Source: a virus
Reading direction: 5' to 3' (one strand)
DNA length: 26,163 nt
IMG/VR virus record: IMGVR_UViG_3300020175_000044
Location: 1-26,163 of that record
Part shown: one piece after another, positions 1-13,329 of the stretch
Numbering within the stretch: the first letter of the stretch is position 1
How the letters are laid out: every line of letters starts with the position of its first letter
Translations under genes and position numbers: made by a program
Notes under the pieces: generated by a model
Told to the model about the DNA's origin: nothing
What the model saw: only the letters and a program-made list of their open reading frames with translations
Databases searched by the model: none

Positions 1-88
1 TTGTGTCGGAAACTCGTTCTCCATTCTCGTATCCACGATAATAGATTAGGTTACCTTTGCGCGAAACATGGGTATAAAATTTAGTCAT
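1..88 (-). CDS. 43: DNA polymerase gp43, N-terminal fragment (partial)
   Basis: These are the first 29 codons of the family B replicative DNA polymerase; the rest lies beyond the left edge. The peptide begins MTKFYTHVSRKGN and continues through YYRGYENGERV. This lines up with the start of T4 gp43 (MKEFY...GNN...ENGKER), with the initiator Met in the same place. Its position downstream of regA is also that of T4 gene 43. The protein copies phage DNA together with the gp45 clamp and the gp44/62 loader, both encoded in this window. No Shine-Dalgarno sequence precedes the ATG; the stretch just upstream is C-rich. A consensus sigma70 promoter lies immediately upstream. The identification rests on the N-terminus and gene order only, because the catalytic motifs are outside the window. 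Confidence 0.85.
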   Translation of the reverse strand, partial: MTKFYTHVSRKGNLIYYRGYENGERVSDT

Positions 89-94
89 GTCGTA

Positions 95-123
95 ATTATA
101 CAAGAGATTGGGGAGGATGTCAA
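95..123 (-). promoter_or_regulatory. Perfect-consensus sigma70 promoter for gp43
   Basis: TTGACA at 123..118, a 17-nt spacer and TATAAT at 100..95, all matching the E. coli sigma70 consensus exactly. Six bases separate the -10 box from the ATG at 88, so the usual start point (seventh base after the -10) is the A of the start codon. A leaderless polymerase mRNA is therefore predicted. Confidence 0.85.
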
Positions 124-166
124 GGGGAGCGAGGATTTTTTTATCAGAACCCTCTAAACTGATATA

Positions 167-316
167 CTACTTAGACGTATAGTACCGGCGACATTCCTGA
201 TGAGATTCAGCAACACCGTCTAATACTTCTTGTGCACATCTTTCGTCGAGTTTTCGGTTACTGTCTTTTACAAGCACAGCACCTACTAACATCATTGCGA
301 TTACAATACCTGGCAT
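167..316 (-). CDS. Small protein with N-terminal hydrophobic segment (49 aa), unknown
   Basis: A 49-residue reading frame starting MPGIVIAMMLVGAVLV and ending YYTSK. Residues 2-16 are hydrophobic and could be a short membrane anchor or signal-like segment. The remaining 33 residues are charged, with two cysteines (about residues 28 and 42). The ATG is preceded by a good ribosome-binding site, AAGGA, 6-7 bases upstream, which overlaps the stop codon of the outer-membrane-type gene. The two are therefore probably expressed as a pair. Function is not recognised. The well-placed ribosome-binding site and tight packing support a real gene. Confidence 0.6.
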   Translation of the reverse strand: MPGIVIAMMLVGAVLVKDSNRKLDERCAQEVLDGVAESHQECRRYYTSK

Positions 317-325
317 AATTATTCC

Positions 326-664
326 TTAGAAATTAAATCGGATTTCAGTTTCAACCTTAGTCTTAGCATCGCCAGTGTCCTTGGTCTCCAGTTTACCTTT
401 AACTGTTACAGCATCAAACTTGAACTTGTATCCTGCTTCGTAACTGTGACCCTTAGTCATTGGTCCGATTTCAAAATACATGTTGTTCTTTGCTTTGTAA
501 CCTAGTCTTAAATGATGAGTTGTCTTAGTATGATCCCACTCTTTCAACTCGTACTCATTCTTGTATTCTATATAGGGTGCGGCTTTAATGTCTAAACTTA
601 AAAACATAAACACCGATCCTATGAATACCAAGGCTACAATCGTTTCTTTCCAATTCTTTTTCAT
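326..664 (-). CDS. Exported beta-barrel-like outer membrane protein (112 aa)
   Basis: The N-terminus is a typical signal peptide: KK at residues 2-3, a hydrophobic core at about 9-24, and a likely signal peptidase I site after IKA (residue 28). The mature part, about 84 residues, alternates polar and non-polar residues in short strands. It ends ETEIRFNF, the terminal-Phe strand recognised by the BamA outer-membrane insertion machinery. It is too small for a porin but fits a small 6-8-strand barrel (OmpX/Lom-like size class, slightly short) or a barrel-like periplasmic protein. The start has a strong AAGGAG seven bases upstream. Such phage proteins can alter the infected cell surface, for example in superinfection exclusion; that role is inference. 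No specific family is recognised. Confidence 0.7.
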   Translation of the reverse strand: MKKNWKETIVALVFIGSVFMFLSLDIKAAPYIEYKNEYELKEWDHTKTTHHLRLGYKAKNNMYFEIGPMTKGHSYEAGYKFKFDAVTVKGKLETKDTGDAKTKVETEIRFNF

Positions 665-763
665 ATCACTACTCCTTTATTAAAAGAGTATCTATTTAAT
701 AAAGACTGTTAATATGGTAAAGGTCTAGTTAATCTTTGGTTAATGTTTCGTAAAGATTGGGTC

Positions 764-781
764 GGGGGGATGCGTCCCCCC
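764..781. other. GC-rich hairpin between small gene and OMP gene
   Basis: Perfect 7-bp stem GGGGGGA/TCCCCCC with a 4-base loop. It lies 40 bases past the stop of the 47-aa gene and about 100 bases before the outer-membrane-type gene, in the only sizeable untranslated gap of this region (665-820). No T-tract follows on either strand, so a canonical intrinsic terminator is not supported. It could be a transcript-end stabiliser or processing site. Confidence 0.5.
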
Positions 782-820
782 AGTTTATGCCGTCATGCGC
801 TTAAGAGGCACCCAAAGGTT

Positions 821-964
821 TTACAAATATGGCGCTGGCATATACAGACTTGAACCCGCTGTGTACACACCGTAGTTAGGTGTGAAGAGAGGTGCTATTA
901 GACCTCCCAGTACAAGCGAAGCAAAGAATACAATGCCTAACCAACTTTTGATTTTCTTGATCAT
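821..964 (-). CDS. Small membrane protein (47 aa), unknown
   Basis: The frame reads MIKKIKSWLGIVFFASLVLG through to MPAPYL. A basic N-terminus (KK, K) is followed by one hydrophobic helix at about residues 8-26. A C-terminal tail of about 20 residues follows, rich in Pro, Gly and Tyr. By the positive-inside rule the N-terminus is cytoplasmic and the tail periplasmic. Its ATG overlaps the TGA of the preceding 41-aa gene (ATGA), a typical translational-coupling junction. That overlap, together with the ribosome-binding site of the upstream gene, is the main evidence that both tiny genes are real. Function unknown; a membrane or lysis-timing role is only a guess. Confidence 0.62.
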   Translation of the reverse strand: MIKKIKSWLGIVFFASLVLGGLIAPLFTPNYGVYTAGSSLYMPAPYL

Positions 965-1086
965 GCGAACCAACTTACAGCAATCATGATCGGTGCTATT
1001 GAAAGCACAGCAAATAGTTGCGCGATTGCAACCATCTGTTCTTTTTTAGAGGAAAGAAATTCCTCGCTTTTTACAAACTTTTCCAT
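961..1086 (-). CDS. Small membrane protein (41 aa), unknown
   Basis: The frame reads MEKFVKSEEFLSSKKEQMVA and ends IAVSWFA. A charged N-terminal half (about residues 1-17) precedes a hydrophobic segment (about 18-41) that could span the membrane once and runs to the very end. The start has AAGGA seven bases upstream, overlapping the stop of the Hsp20 gene. The stop overlaps the start of the next small membrane gene. It is therefore the middle gene of an hsp20 - 41 aa - 47 aa operon read from the sigma70 promoter upstream of hsp20. Function not recognised. Confidence 0.63.
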   Translation of the reverse strand: MEKFVKSEEFLSSKKEQMVAIAQLFAVLSIAPIMIAVSWFA

Positions 1087-1096
1087 TGTTACGTCC

Positions 1097-1525
1097 TTAT
1101 TGAGAATTAATTTCTATTTTTCTCGGACGCTGTTCTTCGGGTAGTTCCACTTTGAGTTTAATCACTAGTAGTCCATTGACGAATTCAGCTCCATCAACGA
1201 CAACATGATCTGCAAGTCGGAATGTTTCCACGAATTTCTTCGTAGTAATCCCTTTGTGAAGATACTCGGTAGTATCCTCTTCAGGGTTGCCCCGAATGAC
1301 TAGAACACCAGGCTTTGCCTCGATATCTAGGTCTTTCTTTTTGTAACCACCAAGTGCAAATTCCATGGCGTATTCTGTGTCAGAATATTTTACAATATTG
1401 TGACGAGGAAAACCCTTCTCGTTTGCGCCAGCGGCAGTTAATCTTTCTATCTCATCCCAGACATGGTCGAAACCAATGAAACGAGAGTGGGGGAACGAAA
1501 ACACTTTACTTCTTGTAGTAACCAT
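1097..1525 (-). CDS. hsp20: Small heat-shock protein, Hsp20/IbpA type
   Basis: A 142-residue alpha-crystallin-domain chaperone that holds unfolding proteins in an ATP-independent way. The alpha-crystallin domain spans about residues 38-128, including the DIEAKPGVLVIRG strand pair (about 67-79) and the NGLLVIKLKVELP strand (about 118-129). The C-terminal I-x-I motif is present (I137, I139). The start is the internal ATG with AAGGAG six bases upstream, not a longer in-frame start nine codons earlier. Hsp20 genes are a common accessory of marine T4-like phages, thought to protect capsid assembly or host proteins during infection. It is the first gene of an operon with two tiny membrane genes and has its own sigma70 promoter. 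Confidence 0.93.
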   Translation of the reverse strand: MVTTRSKVFSFPHSRFIGFDHVWDEIERLTAAGANEKGFPRHNIVKYSDTEYAMEFALGGYKKKDLDIEAKPGVLVIRGNPEEDTTEYLHKGITTKKFVETFRLADHVVVDGAEFVNGLLVIKLKVELPEEQRPRKIEINSQ

Positions 1526-1595
1526 TGCTATCTCCTTATTTAATTTAAGCAAGATTGTTGTCTATCGTTCAGACTATTCTGCAACGACACTACTA

Positions 1596-1624
1596 TATAT
1601 AACATATAATGTAAGAGTTGTCAA
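1596..1624 (-). promoter_or_regulatory. Sigma70 promoter for hsp20 operon
   Basis: TTGACA at 1624..1619, a 17-nt spacer and TATATA at 1601..1596. The predicted start near 1589 gives a leader of about 64 nt before the hsp20 ATG. The -35 box directly abuts the GTG start (1625) of the divergent plus-strand gene. On the plus strand a TATAAT at 1605-1610 lacks a recognisable -35. Confidence 0.75.
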
Positions 1625-2221
1625 GTGAAAATAAAATTATTTGATGAAAAGGAATGTCGAGAAGCAGTTAATCATATTTTTAATATGAAAAATTCCGGTG
1701 ATTTAAAACATGAAAATGAACATCGGTTTTCAACTTTAAATAAAAACAGTTATGGGTGTTACTCTGATCCTGTTTTCAACTCTCTCGCTTTAAAAGCATT
1801 GCCTCAGATGGAAGAGTCATGTGGATTAAAATTATATCCAACTTATACTTACACTCGTCTGTATTTACCTGGATATGCTTTGGTTCCACATTTAGATAGA
1901 CCTGCGTGTGAATTTTCGTCTACTGTTACTATTGGTTATGGAGATAGAGAATCTCCTTGGGAAATTTATATTGAGAACGATGATCTAGATGGCGTTGAGT
2001 ATATATTATATCCTGGCGAAGGTGTAATATACGAAGGCAGAAAATATCATCATTGGCGTTTACCATTAGACAAAGGTTGGCAGATACAAACCTTTGTCCA
2101 CTACATTGAAATTGAAGGAGAAGTTTATTACGATGTACTAGAACGAAATCCTAATTTCGATTTTTCGGAACCCTTCCACGATTTTAAATATGATCCCAGC
2201 AAAAAATATTTAATGACTTAA
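1625..2221 (+). CDS. Fe(II)/2-oxoglutarate oxygenase-like protein, antisense to the operon
   Basis: 198 residues and the only gene on the plus strand. It has a jelly-roll oxygenase pattern: YTRLYLPGYALVPHLDRP gives the HxD iron pair (H89, D91), followed by an LYPGEGVIYEG strand and a distal His (H142 or H143). A 2-oxoglutarate-binding basic residue is less clear (K150 is possible). It starts with GTG; AAGAG lies seven bases upstream. Codons are notably AT-rich. The stop codon overlaps the regA stop tail to tail by 4 bp, with no terminator between them. Read-through from regA would therefore make antisense RNA to this gene. Substrate unknown. The family acts on proteins, nucleic acids or small molecules using Fe(II), O2 and 2-oxoglutarate. 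Confidence 0.7.
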   Translation: MKIKLFDEKECREAVNHIFNMKNSGDLKHENEHRFSTLNKNSYGCYSDPVFNSLALKALPQMEESCGLKLYPTYTYTRLYLPGYALVPHLDRPACEFSSTVTIGYGDRESPWEIYIENDDLDGVEYILYPGEGVIYEGRKYHHWRLPLDKGWQIQTFVHYIEIEGEVYYDVLERNPNFDFSEPFHDFKYDPSKKYLMT

Positions 2222-2637
2222 AATTTATTGCCTATATTATATTTCGGACAAAGTTCCCATTCGTCTTTTTCTTTATGAGAAATGATTTTAATTTGTCTTA
2301 AAGGTGCACACTCAGAAATTTGAAGACGATCAACTACTTTCACTAATCCCCAATCACATAACAACGTTGTTATTGTATTTCTTCTATGCAAATCATTCAA
2401 CATTAAATTAGTTTTTTTACCGTCAAGCAAAAATAACTCTTTGAAATGAACAATGAAGTATCTTCCTTGTTTATGTAAAACATGACACGATTGAAACAAT
2501 TTTTTATCGACCCTTGATGCTACACCAATTCGGGTTAGGGTTTCTCGTATTTTTAAAAAATCATCTGGTTGATCTATAATAATCTCAACCATATCTTTTG
2601 GCACCCAGTCTACTACTACATTATCTTGTTGTTCCAC
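2218..2637 (-). CDS. regA: RegA translational repressor
   Basis: This is the phage mRNA-binding repressor that shuts down translation of early genes, including clamp and clamp-loader genes in T4. Strongly T4-like segments include DDFLKIRETLTRIGVAS, FQSCHVLHKQGRYFIVHFKE and CDWGLVKVV. Order after gp62 and before gp43 is as in T4. Start choice is uncertain. The GTG used here overlaps the gp62 stop by 17 bases and has AGGTGG six bases upstream, giving 139 residues. An internal ATG (2592) matches the T4 start exactly (MVEI versus MIEI) and gives 124 residues, close to T4's 122, but has no good ribosome-binding site. The 15-residue N-terminal extension is therefore tentative. Confidence 0.93.
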   Translation of the reverse strand: MEQQDNVVVDWVPKDMVEIIIDQPDDFLKIRETLTRIGVASRVDKKLFQSCHVLHKQGRYFIVHFKELFLLDGKKTNLMLNDLHRRNTITTLLCDWGLVKVVDRLQISECAPLRQIKIISHKEKDEWELCPKYNIGNKF

Positions 2638-2998
2638 CTTTACCCACCTTTTTCAATAAAATATCTAACTGATTATCAGACAGTAAAGGAAGAACTTGTC
2701 GTGCTTTCTCCTCATTATAACCATAATATAGTTTGATAACATTCACATTATCATCGACTTCTGGTTTCTGCCACTTAGAAAAACGCTTTCTTTTTCTAAG
2801 TGTATTTATAAAAAAATCGAATTGTAATTTATTTGCAACAGAATGATTGGTGTTCATCTCATTAGCAAGAAGAACCGTGTCTTTAAAATAAGATAAAGAT
2901 CGATTAACAAGAAACGAATTATAACTGCTTTCATTTTCTTCTGTCATGATATTGTCTTTTGTATAATTTATAGCATTAACAAACTCGAATGGATTCAT
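2621..2998 (-). CDS. 62: Clamp loader small subunit gp62
   Basis: At 125 residues it is shorter than T4 gp62 (187). In T4, one gp62 with four gp44 forms the ATPase that loads the gp45 clamp. Identification rests on position (before regA in the clamp-loader cluster) and the segment RKRKRFSKWQKP...VIKLYYGYNEEKA (about residues 68-100). That segment matches T4's RGKRYGKWAK...IIKLLAKRY pattern. The ATG overlaps the TGA of the upstream oxygenase gene (ATGA). In T4, gp44 and gp62 are directly adjacent and translationally coupled; here an oxygenase gene separates them. The coding sequence contains a 12-bp perfect hairpin preceded by a TATAAATA box. Confidence 0.82.
   Translation of the reverse strand: MNPFEFVNAINYTKDNIMTEENESSYNSFLVNRSLSYFKDTVLLANEMNTNHSVANKLQFDFFINTLRKRKRFSKWQKPEVDDNVNVIKLYYGYNEEKARQVLPLLSDNQLDILLKKVGKGGTTR
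2772..2802 (-). repeat. 12-bp perfect inverted repeat inside gp62, next to a TATAAATA box
   Basis: Arms at 2772-2783 and 2791-2802 (CACTTAGAAAAA and its exact complement) enclose a 7-base loop. In the minus-strand message it forms a long stem within codons for the NTLRKRKRFSKW region. A TATAAATA (2810..2803) immediately precedes it on the same strand. It is not followed by a T-tract, so it is not a standard terminator. Confidence 0.7.
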
Positions 2999-3561
2999 TT
3001 AGAAGGTCTCCTTTTACCACGATCTGTAACGTTCATAGCAACAGCAATACGTTCTGCACCACTGATTATATTAGGCATTACACCATGTTGTAACCTTGGA
3101 TTGAAAATGATGAGATCGTTATCTTCTGGTTCAACTTCCATATCGATGGTAGGGAAAAATATAGATCCGCATCCTACATCTGCTTTCAAATAAAACACAG
3201 CCGAGTATTCCCATACAGGTCCATGACCATGAGGACCACAAGACTCACCGTCAGTGTATATTAACCCCCACATTGACGGATCAGTTTTAAGTTTTCTTTC
3301 TCCAAGAATATCTAAACGTCTTGCGAACCGATTTAAGGTATAATCGAACTCATGCCTGAGCGGATCTAAAAGATTTTCTCCGGTATGACCCGGTTGATAA
3401 ACTCTGCAATATGCTCTTTCTAACCTTATAGCAGTATCTTTCTGATCGTAAGACCCACCTTCTCGTATCAACTTCATCCAATAATCAGGTTCGTCTAAGT
3501 AGCATTTAGTAACTGCTAGAAAATTAGTTCCGTCATCTACTAAAATTTCCCCTCTGTCCAT
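2995..3561 (-). CDS. Fe(II)/2-oxoglutarate oxygenase-like protein inserted between gp44 and gp62
   Basis: 188 residues. The C-terminal half shows the fold expected of the putative 2OG-Fe(II) oxygenase family with an HxH-type N-terminal ligand motif. H111 and H113 lie in CGPHGHGPVWEYSAVFYL, followed by a G-S-I-F-F strand (about 132-136), the NDLIIFNPRLQHGV strand with distal His H159, and R171 as candidate 2-oxoglutarate ligand in GAERIAVAMNV. Its ATG directly abuts the gp44 stop (TAA-ATG). Its TGA overlaps the gp62 start (ATGA). It is thus translationally embedded in the clamp-loader operon and should be made in step with the loader subunits. Substrate unknown. Confidence 0.75.
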   Translation of the reverse strand: MDRGEILVDDGTNFLAVTKCYLDEPDYWMKLIREGGSYDQKDTAIRLERAYCRVYQPGHTGENLLDPLRHEFDYTLNRFARRLDILGERKLKTDPSMWGLIYTDGESCGPHGHGPVWEYSAVFYLKADVGCGSIFFPTIDMEVEPEDNDLIIFNPRLQHGVMPNIISGAERIAVAMNVTDRGKRRPSK

Positions 3562-4500
3562 TTAATTAAACTCCACGTTGGTCATCAATTCTGTCATACA
3601 TGCTACCATATTTAGTTCATGATCAGCAACAAATGCATTTTTGTATTGATAATCTGCAAGAATTAATACTACATGAGGTATACTAGATGGATTTACACGA
3701 TCATACATACTATCGTAAATTGCGCGGAACACAACTGATGCGTCAACATCAGAATTATTTACTACCCAAGATCGCATTTTCTTAAAGTCTTTTTCTTTAA
3801 GAGACGAAAACAGACCGTCATAAGATCCTGTTGCATCTGACTTTTGCGGTAACAACAGAGTACCACTTGTAGAATATCTTTGAACTTCATTGAGTACTCT
3901 TCTCCAATCAGGTGCATGTTTTAATATCAGATTAGCAACAGGTTCGATATCATTACACGTCACATTCTCTTTGGTAAGAATGCTCAAGACACGCTTCAAC
4001 ATCTGTTCACATAGAGGCTGCATATCTTTTTTGGAAGTATTAAATTCATATACACCGCACCGAGAATGGAGCGGTTCAATGATTCTGTTCTTAAAATTAC
4101 ATGTGAGTATGAATCGACAGTTACTTGAAAACTCTTCGATGAACCCACGCAAAGCAGGTTGTGTCGATTGAGGATTCAAGTAATCTGCCTCATCAAGAAT
4201 GACACATTTTTTATTACTCGTAAGAGAAATAGAAGAGGCAAATCGTTTGATCTTACCTCGTAGTGTGTCGATGTTACCTTCTTCTGAACCATTGATTACT
4301 ATGTAATCCATGTCTAACTCATCACACAGTGCACGTGCAACCGTAGTCTTACCAAGACCAGCAGTTCCAGTGAACAACATATTAGTCAGTTCTCCTTTGG
4401 CAATTGCCTCAGAGAAAGTTTTTTGAAGGGTTTTCGGCAGAATAGTATCGTCTATCTTAGACGGACGATATTTCTCTACCCATAAGAATTCTTTTGACAT
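3562..4500 (-). CDS. 44: Clamp loader large subunit gp44 (AAA+ ATPase)
   Basis: 312 residues, against 319 in T4. It is the AAA+ ATPase of the clamp loader, opening the gp45 ring on primed DNA. The N-terminal loader motif FLWVEKYRPSKIDD is followed by Walker A GTAGLGKTT (45-53), Walker B ILDEAD (101-106) and the SRC arginine-finger motif (146-148). GGAG lies upstream of the ATG. No convincing promoter lies in the 60-base AT-rich gap before it, so it is probably read from the gp45 promoter. Confidence 0.97.
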   Translation of the reverse strand: MSKEFLWVEKYRPSKIDDTILPKTLQKTFSEAIAKGELTNMLFTGTAGLGKTTVARALCDELDMDYIVINGSEEGNIDTLRGKIKRFASSISLTSNKKCVILDEADYLNPQSTQPALRGFIEEFSSNCRFILTCNFKNRIIEPLHSRCGVYEFNTSKKDMQPLCEQMLKRVLSILTKENVTCNDIEPVANLILKHAPDWRRVLNEVQRYSTSGTLLLPQKSDATGSYDGLFSSLKEKDFKKMRSWVVNNSDVDASVVFRAIYDSMYDRVNPSSIPHVVLILADYQYKNAFVADHELNMVACMTELMTNVEFN

Positions 4501-4558
4501 TTGTTACTCCATACATAATAAAAAAATAATAATAATTCAAGTGGAGACAAATGTAAAA

Positions 4559-4786
4559 TTATCCTCCTGCTACTTCTGGCGCAAGTGCTTCGAGAGTTGA
4601 TGCTTCACCAGAAACATTACCTTGTTCTTGCTCTACCAACTGGATCAACGCAATACACTGATCTCTAAGCTGTCCAATCGTGCTTAACTCTTCACCTCGA
4701 AAAGCGCCACGCGCTGTCATAGTATCAACTACTGCAACTGTACTACGTGTAATTCGATTAGCAAGGTCCATCATTTCTTCGTTCAT
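4559..4786 (-). CDS. Conserved-looking small protein between gp45 and gp44 (75 aa), unknown
   Basis: 75 residues from the ATG at 4786, preceded by GGAG with six bases' spacing, one base after the gp45 stop. A longer in-frame start ten codons upstream would overlap gp45 and has poorer support. The sequence is predicted helical, with a distinctive RGAFRGEELSTIGQLRDQC segment at about residues 27-45, then ALIQLVEQEQ and a flexible acidic tail. It is not T4 RpbA, which lies on the other side of gp45. Placement inside the clamp/clamp-loader operon suggests a replisome or transcription accessory role, but no family is recognised. Confidence 0.75.
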   Translation of the reverse strand: MNEEMMDLANRITRSTVAVVDTMTARGAFRGEELSTIGQLRDQCIALIQLVEQEQGNVSGEASTLEALAPEVAGG

Positions 4787-5488: not shown

Positions 5489-5517
5489 ATTATACATCAT
5501 TATTTTCATCGTGTCAA
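5489..5517 (-). promoter_or_regulatory. Perfect-consensus sigma70 promoter for gp45
   Basis: TTGACA at 5517..5512, a 17-nt spacer and TATAAT at 5494..5489. The -35 box overlaps the last codons of the upstream oxygenase gene. The predicted start is near 5482. It probably drives the whole gp45 - 75 aa - gp44 - oxygenase - gp62 - regA operon. Confidence 0.88.
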
Positions 5518-9525: not shown

Positions 9526-9553
9526 ATTATACACTAAAAATAAATGTTGTCAA
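9526..9553 (-). promoter_or_regulatory. Sigma70 promoter for gp55 with palindromic -35 region
   Basis: TTGACA at 9553..9548, a 16-nt spacer and TATAAT at 9531..9526. The predicted start near 9519 gives a leader of about 19 nt. The -35 box is one arm of an inverted repeat, TGTCAA-4-TTGACA (9563..9548 on the minus strand). It sits in the 103-base gap after the 150-aa gene, where no terminator is visible. Confidence 0.82.
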
Positions 9554-13302: not shown

Positions 13303-13329
13303 AAAAAAAACCCCGCCGAAGCGGGGTTT
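13303..13329 (-). terminator. Intrinsic terminator after gp23
   Basis: Perfect 9-bp stem AAACCCCGC/GCGGGGTTT with a TTCG tetraloop on the minus strand, followed by five more T residues (eight T in all). It lies about 30 bases past the gp23 stop and is the only canonical intrinsic terminator seen in the window. It separates the capsid operon from the next late gene. Confidence 0.95.

Follow-up and report, generated by a model that had tools for sequence, protein, structure and literature searches.

T4 gene 43 is the textbook polymerase that represses its own translation through the leader of its mRNA. The gp43 gene examined here starts six bases behind a consensus promoter, which raises the question of how a T4-type DNA polymerase is transcribed and translated where there is hardly room for a leader. 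The window, that is, the whole stretch of DNA analyzed, is a 26,163-base IMG/VR contig of a T4-like phage encoding gp55, gp46/47-like nuclease subunits, the sliding clamp, a RegA-type repressor, the major head protein, clamp loader A, and Hsp20.

The gp43 gene and its promoter in the window

The open reading frame at the left edge of the window was identified as gp43 by tblastn, in which MTKFYTHVSRKGNLIYYRGYENGERVSDT matches annotated DNA polymerases. A second contig (L207), 99.9% identical to window positions 1-4697 (4.7 kb), extends gp43 to 244 amino acids, and this protein matches PHROG DNA polymerase families. Such a second contig is evidence against an assembly error at the left end of the window. 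A megablast search with the first 1.2 kb of the window against phages gave no match, and a host search found gp43 relatives in four MAG contigs with conflicting taxa.

The initial annotation had placed a 12-of-12 sigma70 promoter six bases before the gp43 ATG, and this was confirmed, with a 17-base spacer and hexamers at 123-118 and 100-95. The minus strand of the gp43 5′ flank reads CCCC TTGACA TCCTCCCCAATCTCTTG TATAAT TACGAC ATG ACT AAA TTT TAT, and the features relevant to the analysis are as follows.

2..88, minus strand: gp43 (T4-type DNA polymerase), first 29 codons, the gene continuing beyond the contig end (from tblastn and the L207 protein)
86..88, minus strand: gp43 ATG, with the predicted +1 at its A (position 88), 7th base past the -10 box
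89..94, minus strand: discriminator TACGAC, six bases with a pyrimidine as the 3′ base, without a Shine-Dalgarno sequence
95..100, minus strand: -10 hexamer TATAAT, 6/6 match
101..117, minus strand: spacer of 17 bases, differing in sequence between relatives
118..123, minus strand: -35 hexamer TTGACA, 6/6 match, kept in relatives, unlike the spacer
167..316, minus strand: 49-aa ORF upstream of gp43; homology to relatives ends at 168
5489..5517, minus strand: promoter of the sliding clamp gene gp45, an exact consensus match, its -10 box 26-29 nt ahead of the start (ordinary leader)
9526..9553, minus strand: promoter of the late sigma factor gene gp55, an exact consensus match, its -10 box 25 nt ahead of the ATG (ordinary leader)

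The exact pattern TTGACA-N16-18-TATAAT occurred three times in the window, compared with a mean of 0.05 in 100 dinucleotide shuffles, none of which reached three. Because the exact promoters of gp45 and gp55 have ordinary leaders, the placement of the gp43 promoter is the exception in the window.

A mis-chosen start codon is extremely unlikely. The initial annotation had considered this unlikely from a match to T4 gp43, and its view was borne out through the gp43 starts of cyanophages and of phages of the type of C48C1 (OQ984149, Kyanoviridae), to which, and not to T4, the start was matched. The N-terminal motif (F/Y)YT.V.R.GN is conserved among relatives directly from the ATG itself, and in C48C1 the next in-frame start lies more than 30 codons downstream. 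The window gp43 starts with ATG, as do all gp61 and Dam genes and all gp43 genes of the comparison except for one leadered gene with TTG.

Conservation of the promoter layout in related phages

Related loci were collected from IMG/VR, 80 with the C48C1 gp43 as the query and 80 with the window Hsp20, and gp43 starts were then placed. Layouts were counted in 100 nt of upstream sequence with a promoter match of at least 10/12, upstream regions being clustered at 85% over 45 nt; the promoter threshold and the choice of start were automatic. The -10 box was found 6-7 nt before the ATG in 40 of 62 distinct gp43 upstream regions, which take in cyanophage and Ochrobactrum phage outgroups. We call this layout, in which the A of the ATG is the 7th or 8th base after the -10 box, leaderless-type. 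In a tree of 62 gp43 proteins, the trait fell into a single clade of 50 rows, mostly leaderless-type and with a few leadered members. The comparison of this junction in related marine T4-like genomes, which the initial annotation had proposed, therefore found the spacing conserved (6-7 nt) across one gp43 clade despite strongly diverged proteins and spacers.

The information content per column was 1.4-1.9 bits for the hexamers, 0.3-0.5 for the spacer, and 0.1-0.2 for the discriminator (gp43 and gp61). The window lineage and one relative (L226) have gp43 N termini that are 90% identical and quite different spacers, and both keep the six-base distance. The C48C1 gp43 has TTGACA-N17-TATAAT-CTCCTAC-ATG, a 7-base distance, and several members, including L210 and L219, still have the -10 box at 6 nt with a decayed -35 element. 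A leadered relative (L437), on the other hand, has the same kind of promoter 25 nt from the ATG, with AGGAG in between. These comparisons indicate that the geometry, i.e., the hexamers and the distance, is under selection, as both stayed constant while the spacers diverged.

The intergenic gap is often scarcely longer than the promoter (median of about 32 nt, often 31-32 nt), and the TGA stop codon of the upstream gene falls inside TTGACA in 15/43 gp43, 9/31 gp61, and 10/11 Dam regions. Gaps of 50-90 nt occur in the window and in several relatives, and there too the distance from the -10 box to the ATG is 6-7 nt.

Three relatives (L205, L206, and L209) share 97% identity with the window between position 168 and about 1,600 and carry other gp43 alleles beyond. 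These alleles are 48-52% identical over the first 240 amino acids, each with its own leaderless-type promoter. Since homology to the three relatives ends at 168, gp43 alleles together with their own promoters appear to switch at this junction, and the simplest reading would be that gp43 travels together with its promoter. The junction is sharp: at window positions 156-168, where the 49-aa ORF meets the gp43 promoter, homology stops for L205, L206, and L209 (97%) as well as for L211 (92%), in the manner of a recombination junction.

Two hairpins were also observed in the window. One, GGGGGG-ATGCGT-CCCCCC at 764-781, lies among the small ORFs upstream of gp43 and has no clear T run; the other, at 13308-13329, is a strong terminator-like hairpin (AAACCCCGCTTCGGCGGGGTTT plus a T run, minus strand) just past the major head protein gene.

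Shine-Dalgarno and transcription start signals

The absence of a Shine-Dalgarno sequence at gp43, as initially annotated, was confirmed in the window, and a Shine-Dalgarno motif (4-mer) was present in only 5 of 81 leaderless-type starts, compared with 24 of 42 leadered promoters and 112 of 183 others. Leaderless-type and leadered starts also differed in anti-Shine-Dalgarno energy, with a P value of about 1e-9 that overstates independence because relatives and clusters share ancestry and is only indicative. The base before the ATG was C or T in 77/81 leaderless-type starts versus 24/42 leadered ones; the comparison of this pyrimidine with other genes, made with an earlier clustering, gave a P value of about 8e-17, likewise indicative because of shared ancestry.

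A pyrimidine before the ATG favors transcription starting on the A, and the 7th to 8th base past the -10 box is the usual sigma-70 start. The earlier proposal that the A of the ATG is the standard start point is thereby supported by the conserved spacing, the missing Shine-Dalgarno sequence, and the pyrimidine, from which we infer the 5′ end. With some discriminators, transcription could also begin 1-2 nt before the ATG.

Primase, methylase, and other genes with the same layout

The leaderless-type layout was also found in 30 of 36 distinct upstream regions of the primase gene gp61, which follows, and in 11 of 14 of a D12-class adenine methylase gene (Dam), whereas it was absent from all 194 regions upstream of 13 other phage genes. 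A strict form of the pattern gave 11 sites in total in eleven related records, with at most two per record, versus one control match. The distance from the -10 box to the ATG is bimodal, 6-8 nt for gp43, gp61, and Dam and 25-40 nt for strong promoters of other genes. Two single cases lie beside gp43 and start six bases past a consensus promoter, namely a Mom-like DNA modification protein (L173, 7510-8319) and a TET-associated glycosyltransferase (L148, 4116-4967).

The Dam annotation of C48C1 begins at an ATG that immediately follows the -10 box (L285, 33480-33486). This annotated start is probably wrong because a second ATG six bases on is the conserved start and gives the leaderless-type layout. 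A set of starts at distance 9 (MKRDFT...) was considered as a promoter group and rejected, since it lies inside an epimerase coding sequence in C48C1 and reflects protein conservation.

In a scan of IMG/VR for an ATG behind a consensus promoter, the share with a gene-like ORF was 77% at distance 6 (among the matches listed), 27% at distance 3, and 56% and 42% at distances 9 and 11, respectively (both again among the matches listed). As gene-like starts were most frequent at 6 among the matches listed, leaderless-type promoters seem to be general among viral contigs, which lowers the categorical novelty of the gp43 case. Several distance-6 genes in unrelated contigs resemble replication genes, judged by eye (RNase H/exonuclease, ThyX, and gp47-like).

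Discussion

We consider it very probable that transcription from the consensus sigma-70 promoter begins at the A of the gp43 ATG or no more than about 2 nt away from it, giving a leaderless mRNA (leader of 0-2 nt) that is translated without a Shine-Dalgarno sequence. The host sigma-70 RNA polymerase would itself make the leaderless DNA polymerase message, because the predicted start coincides with the start codon, and ribosomes would initiate on the 5′-terminal AUG. Promoter and gene make up a compact unit whose intergenic space often holds little besides the promoter, a design that relatives also have at gp61, the D12-class adenine methylase, and in the single Mom-like and glycosyltransferase cases. 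A T4-style leader operator would be impossible on such a gp43 transcript because the message starts at the AUG, and autogenous leader control would be lost with it. Some points count against this reading. In HTVC008M, a more distant Pelagibacter phage with a known host, the -10 box lies 12 nt from the ATG, which predicts a leader of about 5 nt and not none, and read-through from upstream genes would lengthen the gp43 message, though still without a Shine-Dalgarno sequence.

The layout could alternatively be a by-product of genome compaction, with gp43 mainly translated from read-through messages lacking a Shine-Dalgarno sequence, e.g., by S1-assisted initiation or by reinitiation after the upstream stop. 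The short gaps, the TGA codons within TTGACA, and the cyanophage gp43 genes, most of which abut or overlap the upstream ORF, would all fit this. However, compaction would not hold the distance at exactly 6-7 nt or place a pyrimidine ahead of the ATG, the distance is kept where the gaps reach 50-90 nt, and the neighboring hsp20, gp44, and uvsX have Shine-Dalgarno sequences, so that we regard this explanation as improbable. That gp55 uses the TATAAT as part of a T4-type late promoter is highly unlikely: the window does contain a gp55 gene, but the conserved element includes TTGACA at a 17-base spacing, and the bases past TATAAT differ from the T4 late box TATAAATA, which in T4 comes without a -35 element.

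An ordinary leader would also result if the true gp43 start were elsewhere, and a few relatives are indeed annotated or aligned in such a way (S-SKS1 and the Dam of C48C1). The protein motif conserved from this ATG and the distant next start in C48C1 speak against a downstream start, and an upstream one would fall inside the promoter and be absent from its transcript, which makes a shifted start extremely unlikely. A chance consensus match ahead of the ATG is scarcely conceivable given the 0.05 exact promoters expected per window, and the comparative data, in which the layout persists in diverged relatives with scrambled spacers, refute it.

A leaderless gp43 message may have a wider meaning. 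The marine T4-like clade might have moved its polymerase, primase, and Dam, and in places the Mom-like protein and the glycosyltransferase, to coordinated leaderless expression, bypassing both Shine-Dalgarno competition and T4-style leader operators and perhaps tuned to ribosome alterations in the infected cell. We put this forward tentatively and think it rather unlikely. The control of gp43 must in any case differ from that in T4 if these related and widespread ocean phages, as appears, have no leader at gp43. The geometry shared with primase and methylase, together with natural leadered relatives that have Shine-Dalgarno sequences, makes a ready comparative system. Annotators gain a rule for choosing starts as well: where an ATG immediately adjoins a -10 box, translation of that promoter's message cannot begin there; the annotated Dam of C48C1 is an example.

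The T4 and RB69 gene 43 has an autogenous translational operator, which in T4 consists of a leader hairpin about 40 nt upstream and a sequence overlapping the ribosome binding site, although autoregulation is lacking in some gp43 proteins related to that of T4 (PMC3014915). The window resembles T4 and RB69 in having a homologous polymerase gene within the T4-type replication cluster and a RegA gene close by. However, the promoter occupies the space of the T4 leader operator and ribosome binding site, and the Shine-Dalgarno sequence is absent. The cyanophages P-SSM2, P-SSM4, S-SSM4, S-RIM50, and S-SKS1 have a related polymerase with an N terminus similar to that of the window gp43, but no promoter 6-7 nt before the ATG. 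C48C1 is the closest annotated genome, in which leaderless-type promoters precede gp43, Dam, and gp61, and differs from the window lineage in its gp43 N terminus (46% identical over 235 amino acids) and in its distance (7 versus 6 bases).

Phage transcripts are often leaderless according to the AR9 paper (PMC5312081). A search of open-access papers found no report of a leaderless gp43, and while leaderless phage genes as such are already known, a T4-like clade in which they are conserved at the replicative polymerase, primase, and methylase appears unreported. Lambda cI transcribed from pRM is such a leaderless phage gene, its transcript starting at the AUG with no Shine-Dalgarno sequence, and the classical examples are mostly repressors. 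In contrast, the genes with this layout here are those of a replicative polymerase, a primase, and DNA modification, conserved in one T4-like clade.
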